Virus record (IMG/VR): IMGVR_UViG_3300005933_000079
Span: 1-22,660 of that record
Direction: 5' to 3' (one strand)
DNA: 22,660 nt
Origin: a virus
A program made the position numbers and the translations under genes. Positions 1,480-22,660 of this stretch are shown piece by piece (position 1 is the first letter of the stretch; each line of letters begins with the position of its first letter). The notes below the pieces were generated by a model. That model was not told the DNA's origin. It made no database searches and saw only the letters and a program-made list of their open reading frames with translations.

Positions 1480-4400
1480 GTTAGCGAAATTCCTCTGTAA
1501 TCTAACAACCTAGGTGCTTTAAATATGCTTTCGGAATGTAATTCTATTTTAATTGCAAATCTACGATAACCTTCAAAGGTTGCTATAGCATTCGTATATG
1601 TTAATATGCCAAGAGCAGTTTTGTCTGTATCTTTAACTTTATATGCAAATTCTTTAAAGTCGTTTATATTACTTATCGAAGAATATAAATTTATACCTTC
1701 AGTAAGTTCTAATTCCATCCAGGCATTAGTATCAAATACACTTGCGTCATCAACAGATTGTGGCTTAATAAATACTTTTATGTCAGTTCCACTTGGGCGA
1801 TACGCTGTAGTTAATAATGTAAAATCTTCGGCGTCTAGATTTTCTGATAATTCAACAGTTCTTGAAATATATTTAGCCGTTGTGTTTGAGTCATTTGTAA
1901 TTTGCCATTCACTTGCAAGTACAGATGCAGTTTCAATATCTATCATTGGCGACGACGTTGAATTTGACCCATTTGCTAAAGATACCGTTAGATTTAAAGA
2001 TTTTACACCAGCTATGTCGTTAGACTTACTATATATGGCTATACCATTTTCCGCAAATAATGTTTTATCATTAAAAGCAACGCTTTGATTATATGCAGCA
2101 CCTGTAGTAGAGTTTGCAAATGTCCCAGCTAGTGATGTGCTTGATACAATATCGTTTGTTCTTGTAATCATTGGCTGTATGTAACTAATGTTTTTATTAT
2201 CGACCGAAACAATTCCAGCTGTAGATTCACTATCAAATCCACTAATAGTATCTCCAGCTTCAAACTTTCTAGTTGAAGTTGCTGACGAACGTTCCAATAC
2301 CATAGATGTTGGGTATCTAAAATCGTAATGTGTTATAGTTGCAGCTGTAATTGGATTTGAATCTATTGAAGCTGTAAAGAACGCATTTCGATCTGCCGTA
2401 ATTGTTGATGTTGTTGAAGACGTAACTCTAAGTATTTGTTTATTCGTCGCTCCGTCATCCAGCAAAATATAATCCCCGGCAGAATACGTATCAGACAAGC
2501 TCGTTCCAGTTATGACATTACTTCCAGCAGTAACACTCACTGAAATTGCAGTAGACCCAATTAATGGCTCATCTGTATAAACAAGTTCGCCAACTTCAAA
2601 CCGCCCTACATTATTCGCTGTAGTAAAGAATTCATTGTCGTCGTTTGTAAATGTTATAGTACCGGTGTCTGATCCAAAGTTATGGCGATATAATTTAAAC
2701 TTAACATCTTCATCTTGATAAGATTTCCACGCTCTGTTATTAGTAGACGTAAAGAGAACTCCATCTCCCCAATCCTGAACAACAGCAAGACCTTGTGTTG
2801 CACCTGGGCTAAGATTTTTTCCACCAACCTTGGAAGTAAAGAGCAGGTAATCTGGATCATTTGCGTCTGGTTTAACGACGAATGCGTATTCTTTTTCAGC
2901 ATCTAATCGTATAGGAGATTTAAATGTTACGGTTGTAGCAACTGAAGCATTATCTGAAACACCTATTTCTGCTGGGTCTAAATGAACATCTGATAATGGA
3001 ACAGATATACTTGAAGGATAACCATTAATAACTTCTCTAATGTCAACCAATAAGCCGTTTGTTGTACTTATTCTTTTAAAGAATATATCTAACTTTGATA
3101 TGAACACGGTTTCAGATCCGCGGCCCATTCCAGTTTTAATAAAAAATGTTTGCGCAAGAGGATCGGGCCCATTATCATTATCATTATCTGGTACTGGCGC
3201 TGTCCTCCGAGTAACAGTCCTATCAGATGTTTCGGTTTGTATGAAGTTTGCAGGCGATCTTGTTGAAACCGATAAGGAAGATTTTTCAACCGAAAAGTTA
3301 TATGCACGATACATTAACGAACCATACGACGTTTTTCCTGATGCTATTGAAGCATATGTATCAATATCTGCTATTTCAAGTCTTCTATCACCTACAAAGA
3401 AAGTACCTTCTGGTATTTTAAATACCGCTCTTACAATTCCATTTCCGTCTGATGTTACGGCAGATCCAATGACCCCACCTCTTGTAAATAACCTAGGATC
3501 GTTTACATTACCGGGTGCTCCTTGAGCAGGATATATGTGAGAATTTACATCATCTTCATCAAAGAAAAAGTAGTGCTGAGTATTAGGTCTTAGACCAGCC
3601 ATGAACACGCCTACTTCTCTAGACCTCATGTATGGATTAAAAGTAAAGTTTGTAACGAAATCGCCAACTTTTTGTTCATTTACATTTTCGCCAGATAATT
3701 GCACACTCCTAGTCGTATCGCGTAAACTAGTAGTCGAGGTTGTACCAGTGCGGCGAGTGCCAGCTCTTACAGTCCCAAGGTTTTCTGTTACTGTAGATGT
3801 TAACGGGATAAATTCCTGTATTGCATCTACTAATTGAGTAAATGGTGTTGTTAAATCTATGTCTATATTTAAAGGATTTGTAACTGTGTCGTATAGTGCG
3901 TCGTATTCAGGTGATAAGGCGCCTGTGCCAATGTAATTATAAAAACTACTTACACAGTTTCTAAATGCTGTTGCATACGGCTGAGATATAATTTCAACGT
4001 CGGAATCTCTTTGTAAAGATCCAAGAACAGGATTCGTTGCATTTGGAAATACCGTTGCATTCGTAATAGTTTTAAGCTTTAGGTTAATTGGAAACGATTT
4101 TACAGAAGGCATAAGTGATTTTTCTGTAAAATCAATGGCCGCGTTATATTCTGTATTTTCCAAATTTGCAATGCTAAGGTCATTAAACGGATCTACAATA
4201 ATACCATTTTTAAATCTACTCAAGCCGTTTTCGTCAGTAATATTTAAATTTTTGGTGTCTGCTTCTAATGTACTTAAGAGAACATAATATCGCAACTGAT
4301 CTACTTTTTGCTCTATATTTTCTATAGCTTTCATGTTATATCCGCGAGTACCTTTTTGTTTGACTGTTGCGGAATAATCAATTCTATCTTGCACGTATGC

Positions 4401-6854
4401 CTCGGCCGGGGAAAGAGCAGGTTTTCCTGGGACAAAAATCTCGGCGATTTTTAATTGGTCTTTAGGAGTAGTTTCAGGAAATGGATTTTCTGATTCAGTT
4501 CCTTTGACAATTGAAATTCTTGAAAAAGAATCTATAACAACTATATCTTTTCTTGAAAAATAATATTGATAATCAACATCCGCGGACTGATTGAGTGAAG
4601 GAGTAAGAATTTCATACGAACTAGAAAAAACAGGGGCAATGTTTACACCAGTTGCAGAATTACTAACTGATGGTGCAGTCCCAACTAAGGCTGCGTTTGT
4701 GTATGTTGCCGGTGATAATGGTTCCACGTATGGTCTAAAGTCTAGAGAGTCTCTGAGATTGTATGTATCTCCTGCAGCTGAAATATAAGACTGTATCTTA
4801 TTCGTGGCAACAGAAGCAGGATAGCTGTTTATGTTAAAGAAATAATTTCCAGTTGTATCTCCAAGCTTAAAGGCATTCATTTCAACTGTCATATCACCAG
4901 GTGCTGGTATCACGCGCCCTGGTTTAAACTCAATATAAGAATGACCATAAAAATTATCTCTTTGGTTTGTTCTTAATTTGAAACTGGTTGTAACATCGTT
5001 CCCAGCTGAATCTGTGATTGTTACAATTTCGTATACATCTGGGAATCCTAAATTATATATTGAATTTGCAGATGTTATTGGCGGATTTGCAAAATCACAT
5101 TTTACATAAAGAGTTTCAGAAGTTTTTGTAAACGGTGAAGCATTTTGAATTCTTTTGTTATAATAGAGCGTAGCAGTTGCAGAAGGAGTTGAGGTCAATG
5201 TTAAATTTAATAGCGATCCAGCTAGCGAATTATTTAAAATATCTATTTTTGTGTTAGTGGCATCAACAAACAGCGCATCATCATTGTTAACAGCGAAGTC
5301 TTCTCCACTATCAGGAGATAATATAACAGTAGTACTAGTCAGGCCTGATAGAGATTTTTGGGCTCTTACAGGAATTGAAATGTTACTTAATGAATTAAGA
5401 CTTACCATCCCGCTATCGAATATCATTGACGATTTGCCAGCATCTTGAATTACAGAATTAACATTAATTGGTATAGATCCGCTTAATCCTACTACTTCTT
5501 CTACATCTGAAAATGTTTGCCCAGGTAAAGTACGAATATCAAATAAGAATATCTTATCGTTTGTTATATTACGAACCCTTGCTGTACCAGCAGCATTACC
5601 GCCCCCGTCTTTTAGTTGAACAGTTTCAAATGTTCCGAGGTTAACTGTGCCTGACGTTGAGGAATTCGCTGTCTTTGCGTATCCTCCATAGTTAAAAGAA
5701 ATTGGTTGGTTTGTTCTTACGCCTATTGATGTGTTAGCTACTTCATCAACTGGTTTGAAAATTTCACTTAAAGTTTCAACACGATAACCTTTTATATATG
5801 CCAAACCCGGCGATATCGTGGCAGTAAGAACACCGTTTTTTCTTACTAGTTTTGGTTTAAATCCTCTTACTGTATAATCACCAGATTCTTCGAATGTGCG
5901 GCGAGCCATTTCATCACCGATAACATTATATTGCGAAACGTTTCTTAGAACAACTTGGTTTCCGTCTGAATATCTAACTAATGAGAAAAAGTCTGCATTG
6001 GCATCAGCTAGTGCATTCGTCAAAGATTTTAGTACTGGAATTAATTTTAGGCGGTCTGCGCCAGGCGCATTTTGGTTGAACGAACCGTTAGCGTTATCTA
6101 AAAGTGATGTGTCTATATCCGAATTTATAATTTTCTCTTGAACTTCGTAACCTATTGAAGTTTCAGTAGGAACGTTATCGTATTTAGAAACAATAATTAA
6201 TTGTTCTTCAGCATATAAAAAATGGCCACGCTGATAAGTAACACCCGGCGCAGAGCGAAGACCAAAGGAATTACCAACAGCATTAACAAAAGAAGTAACG
6301 TTAATAGAATCTACTAATGTTGCTGTTGCGCTAATTCCTGCTCCAACTTCAACGGTGCTTATTTTATAGATTTCTAAAAGTTCACCAGTTTGAAATTGCT
6401 TGTTTACCCCAGAAGTCGATGTATAGTCAATAAAAAACGTATTTAAATTAGGATTTCTGGTTTCAAATCCAGCTGCAGCCGCAACTACAGTCGCGTTTAT
6501 ACCTGAAACTACACCACGCAATTCATAAGAATTGGTACGCACATATTCTTCACCTAGGACAGTTACAGTATCGTCAAATCCAACATAATCTGAAATACTA
6601 AAACCGGTTTTATCACCAAGTTTAACAAACTTAAGATCACTAAGTTCTGTAAAATTACAGCCATTAATAATAGAACCTTCTTGAAAAATATTGTCGCCAA
6701 ATTGTTCTACTTGATTTTGTAGAGTAGTCTGTAACTGCGTGAGTTCCCTAGCTTGTACAGGATATGACGGCTTAAAGAGAATTTTGTAAAATTGCTTCTC
6801 TAAGTTGTAATCATCAAAGTATGGATCAACATTAAGATCTGTATTAATTGGCAT
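1476..6854 (-). CDS. Giant DUF4815-type virion structural protein, 1,792 residues
   Basis: The largest gene of the window. The first 70 residues contain KILFKPSYPVQARELTQLQT followed by an EGSII segment, the hallmark of the DUF4815 family found near baseplate and fibre genes of marine T4-like phages. Most of the rest is beta-rich (Ser, Thr, Asn, Gly, Val) with few charged helices. A block near residues 1065-1170 contains NPYMRSREVGVFMAGLRPNT, and another begins near 1230 with DPLAQTFFIKTG. Between them lies an acidic Asp-Asn repeat (DNDNDN). No signal peptide, membrane segment or enzyme motif is visible. It follows gp8 and occupies the place where T4 carries gp9-gp12, so a peripheral baseplate or adhesin role is likely. 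A clear AGAGAG ribosome site lies just upstream of ATG 6854. Confidence 0.85.
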   Translation of the reverse strand: MPINTDLNVDPYFDDYNLEKQFYKILFKPSYPVQARELTQLQTTLQNQVEQFGDNIFQEGSIINGCNFTELSDLKFVKLGDKTGFSISDYVGFDDTVTVLGEEYVRTNSYELRGVVSGINATVVAAAAGFETRNPNLNTFFIDYTSTSGVNKQFQTGELLEIYKISTVEVGAGISATATLVDSINVTSFVNAVGNSFGLRSAPGVTYQRGHFLYAEEQLIIVSKYDNVPTETSIGYEVQEKIINSDIDTSLLDNANGSFNQNAPGADRLKLIPVLKSLTNALADANADFFSLVRYSDGNQVVLRNVSQYNVIGDEMARRTFEESGDYTVRGFKPKLVRKNGVLTATISPGLAYIKGYRVETLSEIFKPVDEVANTSIGVRTNQPISFNYGGYAKTANSSTSGTVNLGTFETVQLKDGGGNAAGTARVRNITNDKIFLFDIRTLPGQTFSDVEEVVGLSGSIPINVNSVIQDAGKSSMIFDSGMVSLNSLSNISIPVRAQKSLSGLTSTTVILSPDSGEDFAVNNDDALFVDATNTKIDILNNSLAGSLLNLTLTSTPSATATLYYNKRIQNASPFTKTSETLYVKCDFANPPITSANSIYNLGFPDVYEIVTITDSAGNDVTTSFKLRTNQRDNFYGHSYIEFKPGRVIPAPGDMTVEMNAFKLGDTTGNYFFNINSYPASVATNKIQSYISAAGDTYNLRDSLDFRPYVEPLSPATYTNAALVGTAPSVSNSATGVNIAPVFSSSYEILTPSLNQSADVDYQYYFSRKDIVVIDSFSRISIVKGTESENPFPETTPKDQLKIAEIFVPGKPALSPAEAYVQDRIDYSATVKQKGTRGYNMKAIENIEQKVDQLRYYVLLSTLEADTKNLNITDENGLSRFKNGIIVDPFNDLSIANLENTEYNAAIDFTEKSLMPSVKSFPINLKLKTITNATVFPNATNPVLGSLQRDSDVEIISQPYATAFRNCVSSFYNYIGTGALSPEYDALYDTVTNPLNIDIDLTTPFTQLVDAIQEFIPLTSTVTENLGTVRAGTRRTGTTSTTSLRDTTRSVQLSGENVNEQKVGDFVTNFTFNPYMRSREVGVFMAGLRPNTQHYFFFDEDDVNSHIYPAQGAPGNVNDPRLFTRGGVIGSAVTSDGNGIVRAVFKIPEGTFFVGDRRLEIADIDTYASIASGKTSYGSLMYRAYNFSVEKSSLSVSTRSPANFIQTETSDRTVTRRTAPVPDNDNDNGPDPLAQTFFIKTGMGRGSETVFISKLDIFFKRISTTNGLLVDIREVINGYPSSISVPLSDVHLDPAEIGVSDNASVATTVTFKSPIRLDAEKEYAFVVKPDANDPDYLLFTSKVGGKNLSPGATQGLAVVQDWGDGVLFTSTNNRAWKSYQDEDVKFKLYRHNFGSDTGTITFTNDDNEFFTTANNVGRFEVGELVYTDEPLIGSTAISVSVTAGSNVITGTSLSDTYSAGDYILLDDGATNKQILRVTSSTTSTITADRNAFFTASIDSNPITAATITHYDFRYPTSMVLERSSATSTRKFEAGDTISGFDSESTAGIVSVDNKNISYIQPMITRTNDIVSSTSLAGTFANSTTGAAYNQSVAFNDKTLFAENGIAIYSKSNDIAGVKSLNLTVSLANGSNSTSSPMIDIETASVLASEWQITNDSNTTAKYISRTVELSENLDAEDFTLLTTAYRPSGTDIKVFIKPQSVDDASVFDTNAWMELELTEGINLYSSISNINDFKEFAYKVKDTDKTALGILTYTNAIATFEGYRRFAIKIELHSESIFKAPRLLDYRGISLT

Positions 6855-14728: not shown

Positions 14729-16579
14729 TTAGCTAAGACCCCAATTTTTATTATAATATGCATTAATGCTTCCTACTGTGATCCTGCCGTCAGAACCGCG
14801 CCATGGCGGGTTTTGCGCATATGCTTTTGAGCCTCTTTTGTAAACTTCAAAATTATCAGGACGGCCATAATATGCCGGAGCTGCTTGAATAATTCCAAGA
14901 TCGCCACCTTTATACTTAGCACTTGCAAGATATTTGTCGTATACTTCTAATTGCTGAGTTGGGTTCATATTACGAATTTGACTCGTTGTATAACCAAGGC
15001 CTTTTGCTGTGCCAGGTATAAACTGGAACAAACCCGACGCTCCAGAATTTTGATTATATGCAGCAGTATTAAATGCGCTTTCACCGCTAATGATTGCATA
15101 TAATTGCTGCTTTTCGAGACTAGGATATTTACTTTGCATTTCCGCAAGTTTTGTTTGAAACGCTTGATCATTTTCGAGGCCTGCTGCAGATGTTTTAATT
15201 CCGGTAGATGATTTTTTAATTGCGTCTGCTGTAGAGGAAGTCGAAGCTTCACTAGATGTTTCTGTTGCTGCCGCCCTTTCAACTGATTCTTCACCTTCGT
15301 CTTGTGATGTATAACCACTCGACCCAATTATGCCACCGTCATAGCTTTCGTTACGTGTTGTGCTTATGGCTTTACCTACAGGTTCTGGGGCATCTACAGC
15401 TTCAGCCGTGCCAGCACCTGAAGAATCTGGTTCAACTGCCTTACCTTCGGCCATTCGTACATAATCATCAATAGCAGTAAGTTCAGCACTGATACTTACT
15501 TGAGATTCTCCGGCTATTTTTGGATGCTCAGCTTTAATACTTAAATCACCTTCTGCATCGAGATACATTGTTTTTGCCTTTAAGTTAATAGCATCAACAG
15601 CTTGTAGGTTTATTTTTTTGCTTGCCTTTAAATTAATGCCTTCTACGTTTGATTCAAGGCGTAGCTTCCCACCTCTTATTTGAATTTCTTCGCTTGCATT
15701 AATAGTAGACTGCCCGCCAACAGAAAGATAATGGTTTCCTCTAACATTTTGTATTAGATCACCAGTGATTTCTTCTATTTTATTTCCTTTTACAAAAACC
15801 TGAGAATCACCTTCGATAGTAACTATGTTTCTACCTTTTACATATACATAATTATTTCTATCATTTATTTGAATTTTATCAGACGCAGATTTATGAGTAG
15901 TACTTCCGCGCGCGTCAATAGCAATATAAGACCCTGCGCCGTGATATATGGTAATTCTCTCGGCCCCAGGAGTATCATCCAATTCTATTGAATGTGTTGC
16001 TGTTTCTATTACTCTATTAAATGGATACTCCGCGTTATATGCAGGCGCTGGTTCTGCAAAAAATTCGCGATCACCATCCTCAGCTTTATCCGGGTTTTGG
16101 TCTGCAATGCCAATATCTTTTACACGAGATATTTCCTGCTGGTGAACATAAGTTTCTTCAATATTTTCACCGCGAACTAATCTTGAATTTGATGGCTGCC
16201 CTATATCAGGTGGCATTGATCTTTTTGCAAGAATCCTTGAATTTGTTTCGGGTATTTTGCCCCAACCAGTTAAATCTGGGTTTATTATTTCAGTCATTTG
16301 CGTTGGGATTAAGCCCAATATCATTGGCTGCTGTGCATCACGACCGTCAACAAAAAACCCAAATACAAATGAGTTTACACGCGGTATCTCAGCGTTAGGG
16401 TCATAGCTACCATGTACTAGTGTTGCCCACGGAAGATTTTCAGTTGGGACCTGTTGGGTTGTTCCATGCACTCCAAAGGCACGTACTTGTACTCTTCCTT
16501 CAAGACGCTCATCAACATTATTTTCTACAACCCCCATAAAAAATAAAGGATTTAATATCCCAGCACCAGTTTCCATCAT
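14729..16579 (-). CDS. 5: Baseplate hub spike gp5-like with C-terminal lytic transglycosylase
   Basis: With the start chosen here the protein has 616 residues. Residues about 8-105 form an OB-fold region as in gp5 and VgrG proteins (FMGVVENNVDERLEGRVQVR, then ENLPWATLVHG). Residues about 190-370 are short alternating hydrophobic repeats (GRNIVTIEGDSQVFVKGNKI, LKASKKINLQAVDAINLKAK) that match a triple-stranded beta-helix spike. An Ala/Ser/Glu-rich linker follows. Residues 468-616 form an SLT-type transglycosylase: ISGESAFN with catalytic Glu500, and SGASGLFQF at 512-520. T4 gp5 instead carries its lysozyme between OB-fold and helix. The ATG at 16579 overlaps the gp27 stop as ATGA and has GGAG six bases upstream. 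A TTG at 16591 is in frame but less likely. Confidence 0.9.
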   Translation of the reverse strand: MMETGAGILNPLFFMGVVENNVDERLEGRVQVRAFGVHGTTQQVPTENLPWATLVHGSYDPNAEIPRVNSFVFGFFVDGRDAQQPMILGLIPTQMTEIINPDLTGWGKIPETNSRILAKRSMPPDIGQPSNSRLVRGENIEETYVHQQEISRVKDIGIADQNPDKAEDGDREFFAEPAPAYNAEYPFNRVIETATHSIELDDTPGAERITIYHGAGSYIAIDARGSTTHKSASDKIQINDRNNYVYVKGRNIVTIEGDSQVFVKGNKIEEITGDLIQNVRGNHYLSVGGQSTINASEEIQIRGGKLRLESNVEGINLKASKKINLQAVDAINLKAKTMYLDAEGDLSIKAEHPKIAGESQVSISAELTAIDDYVRMAEGKAVEPDSSGAGTAEAVDAPEPVGKAISTTRNESYDGGIIGSSGYTSQDEGEESVERAAATETSSEASTSSTADAIKKSSTGIKTSAAGLENDQAFQTKLAEMQSKYPSLEKQQLYAIISGESAFNTAAYNQNSGASGLFQFIPGTAKGLGYTTSQIRNMNPTQQLEVYDKYLASAKYKGGDLGIIQAAPAYYGRPDNFEVYKRGSKAYAQNPPWRGSDGRITVGSINAYYNKNWGLS

Positions 16580-17904
16580 TCTGTGCTCCAATCATACTTA
16601 ATCAATTTAAGAGCAGTAGTATGTACGTCTCTTACAAAGTTGTGGGTTATAGTATCTATCATATAATATCCAGACAATTGCGGATTTAACCCCTTTTGCG
16701 ATGATGAAATAAATTGAGGTATTTTAATGTTTATCATGCTTCCTGCATTTAAATCTAATCTACCGTTCGCTGTTGCGTACACGATAGTGTTATTTAAATG
16801 GTGCCGATACGCCGTTCTATTTGCAACTATTTCTGGAAGAAATTGATTTCCTCTTAATTGAAATTCTCCACTGTCATCAGCATAATCACGAACTACCATA
16901 TAGCGTTTTTCATTTTCTTGTGTAAAGTAAGAACTTTTAAATTCAGGAGAATGAACACCTTCATCAGTAGACCGCCCTGAGGTGGATACATATTTTGATT
17001 TTTCGGTTTCAAAATCATAAGAATGCACTGTAGATTTAGTTGGAAGGTTTACTCTTCTTTTTACTATATCAACTTCAATAACATGACTACGATAAGCACC
17101 AGAACCGAGATCCTTCATAGTGTTAATGCGATCTTCGTTTTTAATAGTTATAAGATTTTGCATTTGCTGCGAGTATTCTTTACCTGACTTGTCTAAAGCA
17201 TCACTATAAGTAAATTCTTTGATATTGTCAGTATTTTCCAATGCTCGTTTGATTAAATATTCGTCCGAAACAAAAAAGTGATTGTGAGCAGTTTCAAAAA
17301 ATCTAAAAGAGCATGATGGACTCGATGTACTATAAGCACGCTGTGATAAAAAATTCATTGCTTGGACTGGTGTATAATTTGGAATTACACAGCGAAATAC
17401 GCCTTCGGTTGGTTCAACAACTAAGCTCGAAGAATTTTGCGGAGGGCTATAATAACTATTAAAAATGGTTGATGCTATGTTTGATATTTTATCTTCAAAA
17501 GGTTCTGTAATGCGCCGTGCACTTACATTAAATCTTGATTTTGAAACAAAATGAATTTCATATCTTAAACCATCGTTTGCATCATTAATTTCAACATTTA
17601 TAACTTTATATATTCGCATTTGATAAATTCTACGATTTTTCATAGCGTCTTCAACAGTAAAAATCAAATGTTCTTCACCACGAATAGGTAAGTCTTCAAG
17701 AAAACCTATGTTATCAATTATTTCTGCATAACCTTTCATGCAGTCAGAATTAATAGATTCTTCAATTACAAAAACAGGTATGAAGCCTGAAAATTCATTT
17801 GAATTTCCTTGCCCTGAAACTCCTAACTCGATAGATGGAGCTGAATCTGAAACTAATACGGCACTTAATAATTTATATTGGCCTGGTAAAATAAATTCAC
17901 TCAT
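16576..17904 (-). CDS. 27: Baseplate hub protein gp27-like
   Basis: A 442-residue protein (T4 gp27 has 391). It is recognised from position and style more than strong motifs. It lies directly upstream of and overlaps the gp5-like spike by four bases. It has a beta-rich N-terminal half with VEINDANDGLRYEIHFVSKS and RRITEPFEDKISNIASTIFN, and a central hub-like segment, PNYTPVQAMNFLSQRAYS, followed by SCSFRFFET. That helix-strand combination occurs in gp27 and gpD-type hubs. Such hubs form a trimeric torus that joins the tail tube to the spike. In T4, genes 27 and 5 are far apart; here the two partners are coupled. A divergent hub of another subtype is the main alternative. Confidence 0.72.
   Translation of the reverse strand: MSEFILPGQYKLLSAVLVSDSAPSIELGVSGQGNSNEFSGFIPVFVIEESINSDCMKGYAEIIDNIGFLEDLPIRGEEHLIFTVEDAMKNRRIYQMRIYKVINVEINDANDGLRYEIHFVSKSRFNVSARRITEPFEDKISNIASTIFNSYYSPPQNSSSLVVEPTEGVFRCVIPNYTPVQAMNFLSQRAYSTSSPSCSFRFFETAHNHFFVSDEYLIKRALENTDNIKEFTYSDALDKSGKEYSQQMQNLITIKNEDRINTMKDLGSGAYRSHVIEVDIVKRRVNLPTKSTVHSYDFETEKSKYVSTSGRSTDEGVHSPEFKSSYFTQENEKRYMVVRDYADDSGEFQLRGNQFLPEIVANRTAYRHHLNNTIVYATANGRLDLNAGSMINIKIPQFISSSQKGLNPQLSGYYMIDTITHNFVRDVHTTALKLIKYDWSTE
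16586..16589 (-). promoter_or_regulatory. Ribosome binding site deciding the gp5 start
   Basis: GGAG on the minus strand, six bases before the ATG at 16579. It lies downstream of the in-frame TTG at 16591, so it cannot serve that codon and favours ATG 16579, which overlaps the gp27 stop as ATGA. Confidence 0.75.
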
Positions 17905-18541: not shown

Positions 18542-19534
18542 TTACCCCGCCCCGCCACTTATTGTTTGATCGCCAGTTGTTAAATCTGAAACTGACACGT
18601 TATTAGTTGATACTCCGCCATAATCTTCGGATGTATGAATATCCATTTCCATGAGAGTCATATTCATTGACACCATAGCTGGCTTTCCGCCTGTCACTAC
18701 TGCCAAACCGTTTGGAGTATAGTTATTTTGAAATTGTTGTACCATGCATGTCTTATATTTAAAGAAATACCCGTCGTCAATTCCTAAAAAGAATATGTCT
18801 ACAGTACTAGGATAATTTAACAAGACTTTATTTAAACCAACTGCGCTCCCATAAGTAGGAAGAATGTTTCTACGAACTGTTGTAATAATATCTCGTATCC
18901 TATCAGACTCTGCAGCTTCTGTTGGAGCAAGAGTCCAATTAAAATCAAATTGTTTTAAATTTACACCTTCAAAAAACAATGATGATTTCGGGTTAACTGT
19001 ATTTCCTAACCCTTGGTCAACAGCCTTTCCAGCACCAGCAAGCAACTTATCAATTGATCTTCTACCTAAAAATGATAAGTTTTTCGAAGCTTGGTCAATA
19101 TCAGAATTAAGTATTGAACTAAGATCTACTCCGGGTATTAGGTTGCCTAAAACATTTCCTAAATTTGAAACAGTAAGATCGCCTGCGCCAGCAAATTGAG
19201 ATGCCCCTGTAGCAACCGCTGACTGTGCAATACCCATATCACTTCCTGCTACTCTAATAGAATAAATGTCTTGAATATTAGCAGGCAATGGAAGCTGAAT
19301 TACATCCGTTCCGTTTGGTATTGGTCCAAATTCACCGCCGCGATTTCTAGCAGAACCACCAGACAATTTGTTCAATCCTCGTTCGCCGGGCGGAACAAAA
19401 GCGTATTTATTAAAGGCTAATAATACACTGTGAGCTCCGATATTTAACGGAAAGTTTAAAAAATTAGAACTTTGCGAAATTTTACTGTTACTCATGACCT
19501 GTTCAGGCCTTTGACCAAAATCTTGATACGGCAA
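18542..19534 (-). CDS. 48: Tail tube cap / baseplate protein gp48-like
   Basis: A 330-residue protein (T4 gp48 has 364). Segments parallel T4 gp48: FNWTLAPTEAAESDRIRDII resembles FTWDLTPRSTEDLMAIINIY, NYTPNGLAVV resembles TPNGNFNGLAI, and MVSMNMTLMEMDIHT near the C-terminus resembles FTLEITMREIITLN. gp48 sits on gp54 at the top of the hub and gives the platform for tube polymerisation. The frame starts at TTG 19534, with AAGGA about eight bases upstream in the late-promoter leader. An ATG at residue 14 (19495) is a possible alternative giving 317 residues. It is the first gene of the leftward array. Confusion with gp54 is possible because both are tube-related, but the latter fits the gene at 20677 better. 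Confidence 0.75.
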   Translation of the reverse strand: MPYQDFGQRPEQVMSNSKISQSSNFLNFPLNIGAHSVLLAFNKYAFVPPGERGLNKLSGGSARNRGGEFGPIPNGTDVIQLPLPANIQDIYSIRVAGSDMGIAQSAVATGASQFAGAGDLTVSNLGNVLGNLIPGVDLSSILNSDIDQASKNLSFLGRRSIDKLLAGAGKAVDQGLGNTVNPKSSLFFEGVNLKQFDFNWTLAPTEAAESDRIRDIITTVRRNILPTYGSAVGLNKVLLNYPSTVDIFFLGIDDGYFFKYKTCMVQQFQNNYTPNGLAVVTGGKPAMVSMNMTLMEMDIHTSEDYGGVSTNNVSVSDLTTGDQTISGGAG

Positions 19535-20676: not shown

Positions 20677-21483
20677 ATGCCATTTAATATAAACGAATTT
20701 AAAAGTACTATGAATAAGTACGGCGGGCCTGCGCGCAAAAACCTATACGTTGTCGAAATAATGAACGGGCCAGTACAATCAGACGGTATGTCAATGCAAG
20801 ATCTTAGATTTTTTTGCCAAACCGCAACGATCCCGGGCCTAAATTATACGGTAGCAGATTACTATCCAAATGGGTTTGGTGTGAAACAGTCAATCCCAAC
20901 AGCTGTTCAGCCCGATCAATTTAATGCAGTGTTTATGTTAGACTCTGATCATATGGTACTTAGATTTTTTCATCAGTGGATGCAATCAGTAATTAATTAC
21001 AACTATTCAGACGGAGCGTTTTCTCAAGTAAATGGTCAGCTTCCATACGAAGTTGGATATAAAAAAGATTTTGCTTGTAACATAATAATTAAGCACTATA
21101 GTACAGATGGCGCCGATGGCATACCAAAATATTATGAATACACGTTGTATGATGCGTTTCCAACACAGGTAAGCGGCGTTGATGTATCATGGGCAGACAA
21201 TGATTCTTTCGCAACTTCTACAATTAACTTTACATATGCTCACATGGCAGTGTCAAGTTCAAGACAAGGTACGCCAACCGAAAGGTTTGCACGAGGTACT
21301 GGTTTTGTAGAATATGTAAATACTTTAGGAGCAAATGGCCAAGCAATAGGGCAAGGCAGTTTGCCAATTTCAATTCAAGATTCAATAAACGCATTTACTA
21401 AACTTGGTAACTTGAAAAATAACATAAATAATTCGTTTTCGCAAATTAGATCCGGACTAAACGGTTTGCGAAATATATTTTAA
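20677..21483 (+). CDS. 54: Baseplate tail-tube initiator gp54-like
   Basis: A 268-residue protein (T4 gp54 has 320). The N-terminus, INEFKSTMNKYGGPARKNLY, is followed by VVEIMNG and FFCQTATIPGLNY, a layout shared by tube-type proteins. MVLRFFHQWMQSVINYN resembles T4 gp54's NYRAMQDWVNSVQDP, and FATSTINFTYAHM resembles ITTFDVTFAYRVM. gp54 binds the hub and, with gp48, seeds the gp19 tube. The C-terminal 60 residues are Asn/Ser-rich and flexible. The gene starts directly at the stop of the preceding one. gp19 tube protein is the main alternative but would be shorter (163 residues in T4), and the neighbour genes gp26 and tape measure favour gp54. Confidence 0.75.
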   Translation: MPFNINEFKSTMNKYGGPARKNLYVVEIMNGPVQSDGMSMQDLRFFCQTATIPGLNYTVADYYPNGFGVKQSIPTAVQPDQFNAVFMLDSDHMVLRFFHQWMQSVINYNYSDGAFSQVNGQLPYEVGYKKDFACNIIIKHYSTDGADGIPKYYEYTLYDAFPTQVSGVDVSWADNDSFATSTINFTYAHMAVSSSRQGTPTERFARGTGFVEYVNTLGANGQAIGQGSLPISIQDSINAFTKLGNLKNNINNSFSQIRSGLNGLRNIF

Positions 21484-21485
21484 TT

Positions 21486-21491
21486 GAGGAG
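21486..21491 (+). promoter_or_regulatory. Strong ribosome binding site of gp26
   Basis: GAGGAG, ten bases upstream of the ATG at 21502, in an 18-base spacer. It is the best ribosome site of the rightward array and contrasts with the absence of any such site before the next frame at 22203. Confidence 0.8.
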
Positions 21492-21501
21492 ATAATACAC
21501 A

Positions 21502-22203
21502 ATGCCACTACCAAAGATTGACATGCCGATATATGAGCTTTCGTTACCATCTAACGATAAAAAGGTTAAGTATCGGCCCTTTACAGTAAAAGAAGAAAAA
21601 ATTCTTTTAATTGCTCAAGAATCAAAAGACACTGAACAAATTATAAGTTCAATTAAACAGATTGTGAATAATTGTTTACTTGAAGATACTATTGATTCAT
21701 TATCACTCGTTGATTTGGAATACTTATTAATATCAATTCGTTCTAAGTCTGTTGATAACATTGTAAAGTTTAAAATAGAAGACCCAGACACTGAAGAATC
21801 TATTGAATTAGAATTAGATTTAACGCAAGTAAAAATTGAAAAACCTGAAAACCATACGAACCAAATTGAAGTATCAGAAAATTATGTATTGTTTTTAAAA
21901 TACCCTACGGCTGAAGACTTCTTTGTTCTTTTAAACGAGGATAAGTCTGAGACCGAAAGAAATTACGATATTATGCTTTGCTGTTTAGACAAATTAGCAT
22001 CAGAAGAAGACGTGTTTAACTTTAAAGATTTTAGTAAAAAAGAAGTTAATGATTTCATTGAAAGTCTACATAACGATGTTGTTAAAAAAATGAAAGAGTT
22101 TTTTGATACGATACCAAAAGTAAGACATGAAGTTGAATACATAAATAAAAACGGTGATAATAAAACCTTTGTGATACAAGGAACCCAAACTTTTTTTATC
22201 TGA
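21502..22203 (+). CDS. 26: Baseplate hub assembly protein gp26 (putative tape-measure chaperone)
   Basis: A 233-residue acidic, helical protein (T4 gp26 has 208). The N-terminus YELSLPSNDKKVKYRPFTVK, followed by EEKILLIAQESKD and IIKQ-type helices with IVNNCLLEDTID, matches the gp26 family (T4_baseplate). gp26 is required for hub assembly in T4 and is not a major component of the finished structure. It has a strong GAGGAG ribosome site. The last codons, ACT TTT TTT ATC TGA, contain a seven-T run in slippery phase. The stop overlaps the start of the next frame by one base (TGATG). The order gp26, short frame, tape measure is that of the lambda G/T chaperones, so a chaperone role on the tape measure is likely. 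Confidence 0.88.
   Translation: MPLPKIDMPIYELSLPSNDKKVKYRPFTVKEEKILLIAQESKDTEQIISSIKQIVNNCLLEDTIDSLSLVDLEYLLISIRSKSVDNIVKFKIEDPDTEESIELELDLTQVKIEKPENHTNQIEVSENYVLFLKYPTAEDFFVLLNEDKSETERNYDIMLCCLDKLASEEDVFNFKDFSKKEVNDFIESLHNDVVKKMKEFFDTIPKVRHEVEYINKNGDNKTFVIQGTQTFFI
22191..22197 (+). promoter_or_regulatory. Putative -1 frameshift slippery heptamer T TTT TTT
   Basis: Seven Ts phased exactly as X XXY YYZ relative to the gp26 frame (TTT at 22192-22194 and 22195-22197). After a -1 slip, reading continues TAT, CTG and then the ATG frame of the next gene at 22203, with no stop until 22374. The product would be 291 residues: 232 of gp26, Tyr-Leu, then all 57 of the next frame. Confidence 0.65.
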
Positions 22204-22264
22204 TGTTGAGTCATACGAACCTTTCGATTTATTATGATAAAATTTTTGGAATGGTTCAACATCA
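22201..22264 (+). promoter_or_regulatory. RNA stem-loop downstream of the slippery run
   Basis: TGATGTTGA (22201-22209) is exactly complementary to TCAACATCA (22256-22264), a 9-base-pair stem starting three bases after the slippery run. Inside the 46-base loop, TCATA (22211-22215) pairs with TATGA (22233-22237) and CGAA (22216-22219) with TTCG (22223-22226). Spacing from slippery site to stem is shorter than the usual 5-9 bases unless the lowest pairs open. Confidence 0.55.
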
Positions 22265-22376
22265 TAAGTATTCAGTTGATGAGTTAGAAAGAATGATGCC
22301 TTTTGAAAGAGATTTATATTTTGATATGTTAATTAACTTTATAAAGCAACAAGAAGAAAAGCAAAGAAGAAAATAA
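22203..22376 (+). CDS. Short frame in the gp51 position, likely C-terminal extension of gp26 by -1 frameshift
   Basis: A 57-codon frame, ATG 22203 to TAA 22374-22376. The protein begins MLSHTNLSIYYDKIFGMVQH, continues HKYSVDELERMMPFERDLYF and ends in a charged helix (KQQEEKQRRK). The pattern of hydrophobic helix, MPFERD and acid/base tail resembles the C-terminal part of tail assembly chaperones. No ribosome site precedes its ATG; GGA at 22180 is too far away. It overlaps the gp26 stop by one base and is in the -1 frame. It could be made as a gp26 fusion, by coupling, or both. T4 gene 51 lies in this place but encodes 249 residues, so gp51 homology is not claimed. It abuts the tape-measure start (TAAATG). 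Confidence 0.8.
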   Translation: MLSHTNLSIYYDKIFGMVQHHKYSVDELERMMPFERDLYFDMLINFIKQQEEKQRRK

Positions 22377-22660
22377 ATGGCAACGTTTGAAGATCTTAAA
22401 ATTGTATTAGACTCTATTGATATTAACATATCGCAGCAAGGTGCTATGTTATCTTCCATGGCGCAAATTGATAATCAGCAGGTTGATTTACTTGCTGAAC
22501 AAAATAGTATGCTGCAGAAAATGTTATCGGCACAGGAAAGAGCAACAACCTTAGGAGATGCTAGTAGGGCGTCTGTAAGCCCACAGCCAATGTACCAATC
22601 ATCTTCAGGTGGATCTACTGCAGCTGCACCAAGCAGTGCTGGTAAGGGTGGTTTTAGTCT
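22377..22660 (+). CDS. 29: Tape-measure / baseplate hub protein gp29-like, N-terminal 94 residues
   Basis: The frame starts with ATG immediately after the preceding TAA and stays open to the window end. The visible protein begins MATFEDLKIVLDSIDINISQ and has a heptad-like helix, QQVDLLAEQNSMLQKMLSAQ, then a low-complexity Ser/Gly/Ala/Pro-rich linker (QSSSGGSTAAAPSSAGKGGF). This is how tape-measure proteins of marine T4-like phages begin. T4 gp29 (590 residues) spans the tube lumen and sets tail length; it also belongs to the hub. Assignment rests on position after gp26 and the short frame and on the coiled-coil style; the diagnostic core lies outside the window. Confidence 0.65.
   Translation, partial: MATFEDLKIVLDSIDINISQQGAMLSSMAQIDNQQVDLLAEQNSMLQKMLSAQERATTLGDASRASVSPQPMYQSSSGGSTAAAPSSAGKGGFS

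Follow-up and report, generated by a model that had tools for sequence, protein, structure and literature searches.

The window analysed here is a stretch of viral DNA 22,660 nucleotides long (IMG/VR record IMGVR_UViG_3300005933_000079, positions 1 to 22,660). Near its right-hand end, on the plus strand, lies a gene for gp26, a putative short tail assembly chaperone that is TAC-N like (21502..22203; 233 residues plus stop). Its product matches PF12322 (E 3.3e-54; 184.3 bits, above the curated cut-off of 24.5) and phrog_150 (E 2e-56). The gene ends in ..CAA ACT TTT TTT ATC TGA, which places a slippery heptamer, T TTT TTT (22191..22197, plus strand), in the X XXY YYZ phase for a -1 shift, with ATC as the sole sense codon before the stop. 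This heptamer and its phase had been claimed in the original prediction, as had an open -1 frame, and both are confirmed: the -1 frame is open from upstream of the T run, passes through TAT CTG and an ATG at 22203, and closes at a stop at 22374-22376. Read from the slip site (22191..22376, plus strand), it encodes 61 residues (FFYLML...QRRK) followed by the stop, a candidate C-terminal extension for a longer form of gp26. The predicted fusion would have 230 + 61 = 291 residues, its junction would read ..GTQTFFYLMLSH.., and the tryptic peptide crossing that junction is predicted to be TFVIQGTQTFFYLMLSHTNLSIYYDK.

A gene finder would instead call a 57-residue frame from the ATG (22203..22376, plus strand), in line with the separate gp51 genes annotated elsewhere. 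This frame was said to have no ribosome site of its own, and there is indeed no Shine-Dalgarno-like sequence at a normal distance from the ATG at 22203; AAGGA (22178-22182) is 20 nt upstream. The same stretch, extended to AAGGAA (22178..22183, plus strand), ends 7 nt before the T run and is a possible upstream stimulator of frameshifting. A feature absent from the original prediction is the overlap of the gp26 stop with the second ATG as TGATG (22201-22205). Stop/start overlaps of this kind typically mark coupled reinitiation, and the window sequence alone is therefore ambiguous between frameshifting and reinitiation. A predicted downstream RNA stem, also on the plus strand, begins at the gp26 stop and includes the ATG, its 5' arm (22201..22214) pairing with a 3' arm at 22251..22264.

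The -1 frame had been predicted to end beside the start of the tape measure gene. The adjacency holds, as the stop directly precedes an ATG at 22377; the tape-measure label of the gene that starts there was not confirmed. Only the start of this gene is present (22377..22658, plus strand), cut by the window end, and a tape measure role is suggested by its position, length and repeats. In the relative L005 the gene (3876-6359) encodes 827 aa with repeated Gly-rich hydrophobic blocks. Searches against PHROG and Pfam gave no PHROG match and no significant Pfam match, and in BLASTP its similarity to two proteins that carry a tape-measure-like annotation or note was weak. Elsewhere in the window, two minus-strand open reading frames (18542-19534 and 14729-16591) are both long and are listed from TTG starts.

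Relatives were gathered through two scans of viral contigs (the best 80 of 201 and the best 80 of 276 relatives) and two further viral scans with a Vibrio gp26 and a Stenotrophomonas gp26, which contributed two loci each. Twenty named phage regions, hand-picked from listings, were added before the count of 94 described below. Including the window, the total is 185 loci. A gp26 gene was found in 183 of them (L026 and L029, with no complete gp26 open reading frame, were left out), and 94 remain at 90% identity (NR90). T4-type loci (L084, L086 and L179-L188) were held apart as a control, and loci L199-L205 were added later, outside the 94.

The original prediction had proposed a comparison of gp26 3' ends among relatives, and this comparison supports it. 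An in-phase T TTT TT(C/T/G) stands at the 3' end of gp26 in 92 of the 94 NR90 relatives, with C as the last base in 56, T in 33 and G in three, and it lies one codon from the stop in 73 of these 92 carriers. Inside gp26 bodies the same motif occupies 14 of 21,351 codon positions, and a chance origin of the heptamer was rejected on this comparison. Within the window, an in-phase T TTT TTN occurs at seven of 7,163 codons over 16 open reading frames, the slip site counted, so a single heptamer in a window of 35.6% GC is unremarkable alone.

Part of the T run reflects protein constraint, as the Phe-Phe pair (FF) is invariant in an alignment of 45 gp26 sequences. Because this pair is conserved in the protein (with Phe-Leu in the three TTTTTTG cases), the choice of codons offers a fair test. 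In all 92 heptamer carriers the preceding codon ends in T and the first Phe codon is TTT. In gp26 bodies, by comparison, TTT accounts for 686 of 1,063 Phe codons, and 824 of 1,374 codons for the same residue as the one preceding the pair have T as their third base. Judged against each gene's own codon use, the bias has a log10 P of about -20 over 35 NR60 representatives and of -9 at 40% identity (n=12). Other FF pairs in gp26 bodies take the T TTT TTY form in five of 80 cases. The T4-type gp26 control carries no heptamer (0/11) and has no -1 open reading frame to reach. It keeps FF in eight of 11 sequences, written TTC TTT or TTC TTC after GAA or GAG, although these 11 include several near-identical T4 strains and three of the eight FF cases are identical there. 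As T4-type gp26 thus retains FF in heptamer-breaking codons, protein constraint on FF as the sole cause of the heptamer was rejected.

The -1 frame is conserved together with the heptamer. A homologous -1 product of 59-68 residues, alignable from the slip site onward, is present in 90 of 90 untruncated NR90 cases (L006 and L047, cut in the -1 frame, were excluded). Within the first nine -1 codons past the slip site, 42 of these 90 have an ATG, five a GTG without ATG, 18 only a TTG and 25 none of the three; in the NR60 subset, 12 of 34 have none. In these 25 the open -1 frame also has none of the three codons further upstream; such frames therefore lack a conventional start, despite their conservation. 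Pelagibacter phages Mosig and HTVC008M are examples of relatives whose second frame has no start codon. The original prediction would have been undermined by relatives in which the gene order is retained, the slippery run is missing and the second frame has its own start; the relatives examined display the opposite. Separate gp51 genes are annotated in S-PM2, P-SSM2 and phiM12, and one other public record annotates none. In three further phages the annotated gp51 begins well within the conserved -1 frame: Mosig (L083, 3262-3396), P-HM2 (L192, 3289-3381) and syn9 (L195, 3271-3414).

RNA structure downstream of the slip site was compared with shuffled sequences and with synonymous recodings. In the window the stem forms 14 of 14 pairs, with a minimum free energy of -16 kcal/mol (z -2.05; eight of 200 shuffles equally good; P 0.045 against synonymous recoding), and is thus only modestly better than chance. 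Among 34 NR60 relatives, downstream stability has a mean z of -1.88 against shuffles, with control stretches at -0.23 and 0.01, and of -1.96 against synonymous recodings of the -1 product, with controls at -0.23 and -0.27. A recoding P of at most 0.05 was obtained for 17 of 34 downstream stretches, against four of 34 and one of 34 for the controls. The stem is not universal, as eight of the 34 have no extra stability (z > 0 in the recoding test). Loci that carry the heptamer without extra downstream RNA stability include L061, L094, L131, L189 and L194.

Covariation was scored for 29 of the 32 sequences with a T7 run (three were omitted because of gaps); 53 other ungapped sequences with a T6 run lay outside this alignment. 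Over the 29, 78.3% of cells of the window stem are paired. Its covariation score is 0.210, against a shuffled mean of 0.150 (0/500 as high) and a maximum of 0.100 when slid, although this test is biased towards the stem, which was taken from the fold of the window itself. By a second measure, pairs in which both partners have changed, the stem does not stand out (5 vs 3.8; 124/500 shuffles as high). In S-PM2-type relatives, represented by 11 of the 53 ungapped T6 sequences, another hairpin occupies this position; it covaries weakly (0.111 vs 0.085; 1/500 shuffles as high), and its further pair types number five, where shuffles give 5.5. When the 29 T7-run sequences were folded to a consensus, only five pairs formed (-0.32 kcal/mol), so the case for a stem rests on the shuffle z, the recoding z and covariation. 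Rfam gave no match at gathering thresholds for 21400-22660. The stem begins 3 nt past the T run, which is a short spacer.

Upstream of the heptamer, an SD-like match of at least four bases ends 8-11 nt before it in 26 of 34 NR60 relatives. Such a match lies within 25 nt upstream in 30 of 34, against 245 of 748 control stretches. The site overlaps a nearly invariant Gly codon and so is indistinguishable from protein constraint, which may account for its conservation.

Comparison with T4 connects the two frames of the window to known tail genes. According to a 2010 review of the T4 tail, gp51 is essential and of unknown function (PMC3004832). Sullivan et al. 2010 report that gp51 copies in cyanophages and marine vibriophages resemble the C-terminus of T4 gp51 and are missing its first ~200 residues (PMC3037559). 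The window frame (22203-22373) matches phrog_634 (E 4e-21), as does T4 gp51 (E 1.2e-23). A profile of the 90 predicted fusions aligned with T4-type gp51 at 99.7% over 249 columns, and at 99.3% over 242 in a repeat with other settings; column-shuffled T4-type gp51 reached at most 2.7% against the fusion profile in 40 trials. With the -1 part alone, hhalign gave 96.3-97.3% against the gp51 C-terminus, and shuffled versions a maximum of 1.4% in 40. The assignment of this frame to the gp51 position, made in the original prediction, is thus borne out and exceeded, through the phrog_634 match and the alignment with the C-terminus of T4 gp51.

T4-type gp26, for its part, aligns with the short form only and ends three residues past FF. 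PF12322, to which the window gp26 belongs, covers residues 1-201 of T4 gp51. The 57-codon frame of the window is without a gp26-like N-terminal domain of this kind, whose counterpart is encoded in the other frame, by gp26. T4 gp51 therefore aligns end to end with the predicted fusion and T4 gp26 with the short form, so that in T4 each of the two forms has a gene of its own, as the PRFect paper also states for some T4-like phages. In this T4 differs from the window: its two genes are separate, gp51 is fused in frame and there is no heptamer. In a tree, T4 gp26 (93/96) and T4 gp51 (100/100) form separate groups beside all others, the root having been placed for drawing only. Because these groups are not adjacent to the frameshift-type Straboviridae (D525, Aeromonas 65 and avDM12), the tree does not date a duplication.

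Predicted structures were obtained for gp26 (pLDDT 88.2) and T4-type gp51 (pLDDT 87.5). The two models share the order of most elements, and gp51 has extra C-terminal helices. Residues 1-94 of the gp26 model matched 3fgx (Z 8.0), the HK97 chaperone 2ob9 (Z 7.6), YqbN 3klu (Z 6.6) and 5ir0 (Z 5.0), followed by an unrelated entry at Z 2.5; the fold tool itself warns that a Z under 8 can reflect a common arrangement. Superpositions on 3fgx, 2ob9 and 3klu gave an rmsd of 3.9-4.2 over 83-84 residues, and 3fgx and 3klu are presumably chaperone relatives. The N-terminal domain of the gp26 model thus resembles solved tail assembly chaperones. Foldseek returned no match for the gp26 model at E 0.001 and none with E <=0.001 for the T4-type gp51 model. 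VIA-align listed no chaperone for the latter, an absence that proves nothing.

Taken together, these comparisons make it very probable that programmed -1 frameshifting yields a 233-residue short chaperone and a 291-residue long one, in the manner of lambda G and GT. This agrees with the original prediction of gp26 and a 291-residue extension, which is supported by the heptamer, the coding capacity of the -1 frame, the start-less frames, the covarying stem and the homology to T4 gp51. The gp26 gene and the 'gp51' frame would then form a single gene that encodes two proteins. At the TGA at 22201-22203 the majority of ribosomes would terminate, releasing the short chaperone. A smaller fraction, held up by the RNA stem and perhaps aided by the upstream GG-rich site, would move back by one nucleotide on T TTT TTT, enter the -1 frame and complete the long form. 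If lambda is a guide, tape measure binding would fall to the region common to both forms, and tail tube subunits would be recruited through the extension. That the shift occurs, the rate at which it does so and the roles of the two chaperones are what we infer here.

Other routes from the same sequence to a gp51-type product have to be weighed against frameshifting. Coupled termination and reinitiation, in which ribosomes stop at the TGA and restart at the overlapping ATG to make a separate 57-residue gp51, would explain the TGATG of the window, the ATG found early in the -1 frame of nearly half of the relatives (42 of 90) and the public records with a separate gp51. It requires neither the heptamer nor its codon choice, however, and it would have to operate on an ATG that in the window lies within the RNA stem. 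The start codon is also not kept among relatives, as 25 of the 90 have none and yet their protein aligns from the slip site, and T4 gp51 is a full-length gp26-like protein with a C-terminal fusion. Simple reinitiation as a general mechanism was rejected on the absence of a start codon in those 25, and for this locus it appears very unlikely. A combination of the two is somewhat easier to accommodate, though still improbable. The long form would come from frameshifting, and wherever TGATG or TAATG is present reinitiation would yield a third product, the free C-terminal domain. The window and the Vibrio phages D525 and VS1 do combine the heptamer with an overlapping ATG; a general need for a free domain, however, is contradicted by the many relatives that lack a start codon at this point.

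The fused frame could also arise by ordinary translation if polymerase slippage on the T run added a U to some mRNAs. The seven T of the window would lend themselves to this, and in L178 the run is one T shorter than in its relative, phage Moby. Against it, 59 of 92 relatives have six T only, a run that is short for polymerase slippage, and slippage could proceed without the X XXY YYZ phase and without a stem downstream. Transcriptional slippage is very unlikely to be the source of the long form.

If frameshifting is the correct reading, the truncated look of 'gp51' in cyanophages and marine vibriophages is explained, with gp26 supplying the missing part through the shift. Public records such as those of S-PM2, P-SSM2 and phiM12 would then carry a misread second gene, and T4 gp26 and gp51 would acquire a testable role.

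Frameshifting in tail chaperone genes is classical, and the window adds another case. Like the window, lambda G/GT combines a short protein with a -1 extension, and frameshifting there is low-level; the lambda slippery sequence differs from T TTT TTT. The analogy drawn in the original prediction fits both the extension and the predicted fold. The Atkins 2016 review describes the G part as binding the tape measure protein and T as binding the tail tube protein, and reports that long-tailed phages, 'except T4', widely share the shift (PMC5009743). A further parallel is the chaperone locus reported for the Vandenendeviridae and Andersonviridae (phage Adele), in which a T-rich shift site ends the short gene and an open -1 frame precedes the tape measure gene. 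These are different families, and the motif described for Adele is the shorter GTTTTT, without a T6 heptamer.

The original prediction had hinted that a frameshift is not standard for T4-like gp26. The idea is in fact already known, judging from citations of Vladimirov, Gautam and Davidson 2022 (Virology 566:9-15), which is cited in print for poly-T frameshift signals in T4-like chaperone genes. The PRFect paper (PMC10885494) cites the same work for some T4-like phages having a short gene and a longer fused gene, with no frameshifting. The title of Vladimirov et al. 2022 stresses a non-frameshifting mechanism, and two citing papers describe the content of that work differently. In the literature searched, the stems, the start-less second frames and the Ackermannviridae-type variant were not found described; Vladimirov et al. 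2022 lies outside this coverage, so no novelty is claimed.

A broader reading, which we advance tentatively, is that the signal has two parts. The slip site would be nearly frozen, and the stem would be repeatedly rebuilt by lineage at the same place in conserved coding sequence. N NTT TTY would represent a weaker, single-Phe site in Ackermannviridae-type phages, and T4, with its separate genes 26 and 51, would have dispensed with the signal. In seven Ackermannviridae-type loci N NTT TTY replaces the heptamer, and the -1 frame is still conserved. Four of these are Ackermannviridae by record (L199, L202, L203 and L204) and three resemble them (L092, L200 and L205). In Kuja, VPALA and the Klebsiella phage cp18, which belong to this type, the second frame has no ATG at its start, ATG alone having been scored. 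A single-Phe slip at this site is possible, given its likeness to the GTTTTT motif reported in other families. Of the loci L199-L205, one carries the heptamer, L201 (Aeromonas phage avDM12-TAAL), and six are without it.

The two NR90 genes without a heptamer are K393 (L092) and L178. L178 is 99% identical to Stenotrophomonas phage Moby, and with one T fewer its gp26 runs into the +1 frame, which is either a real variant or an assembly error.
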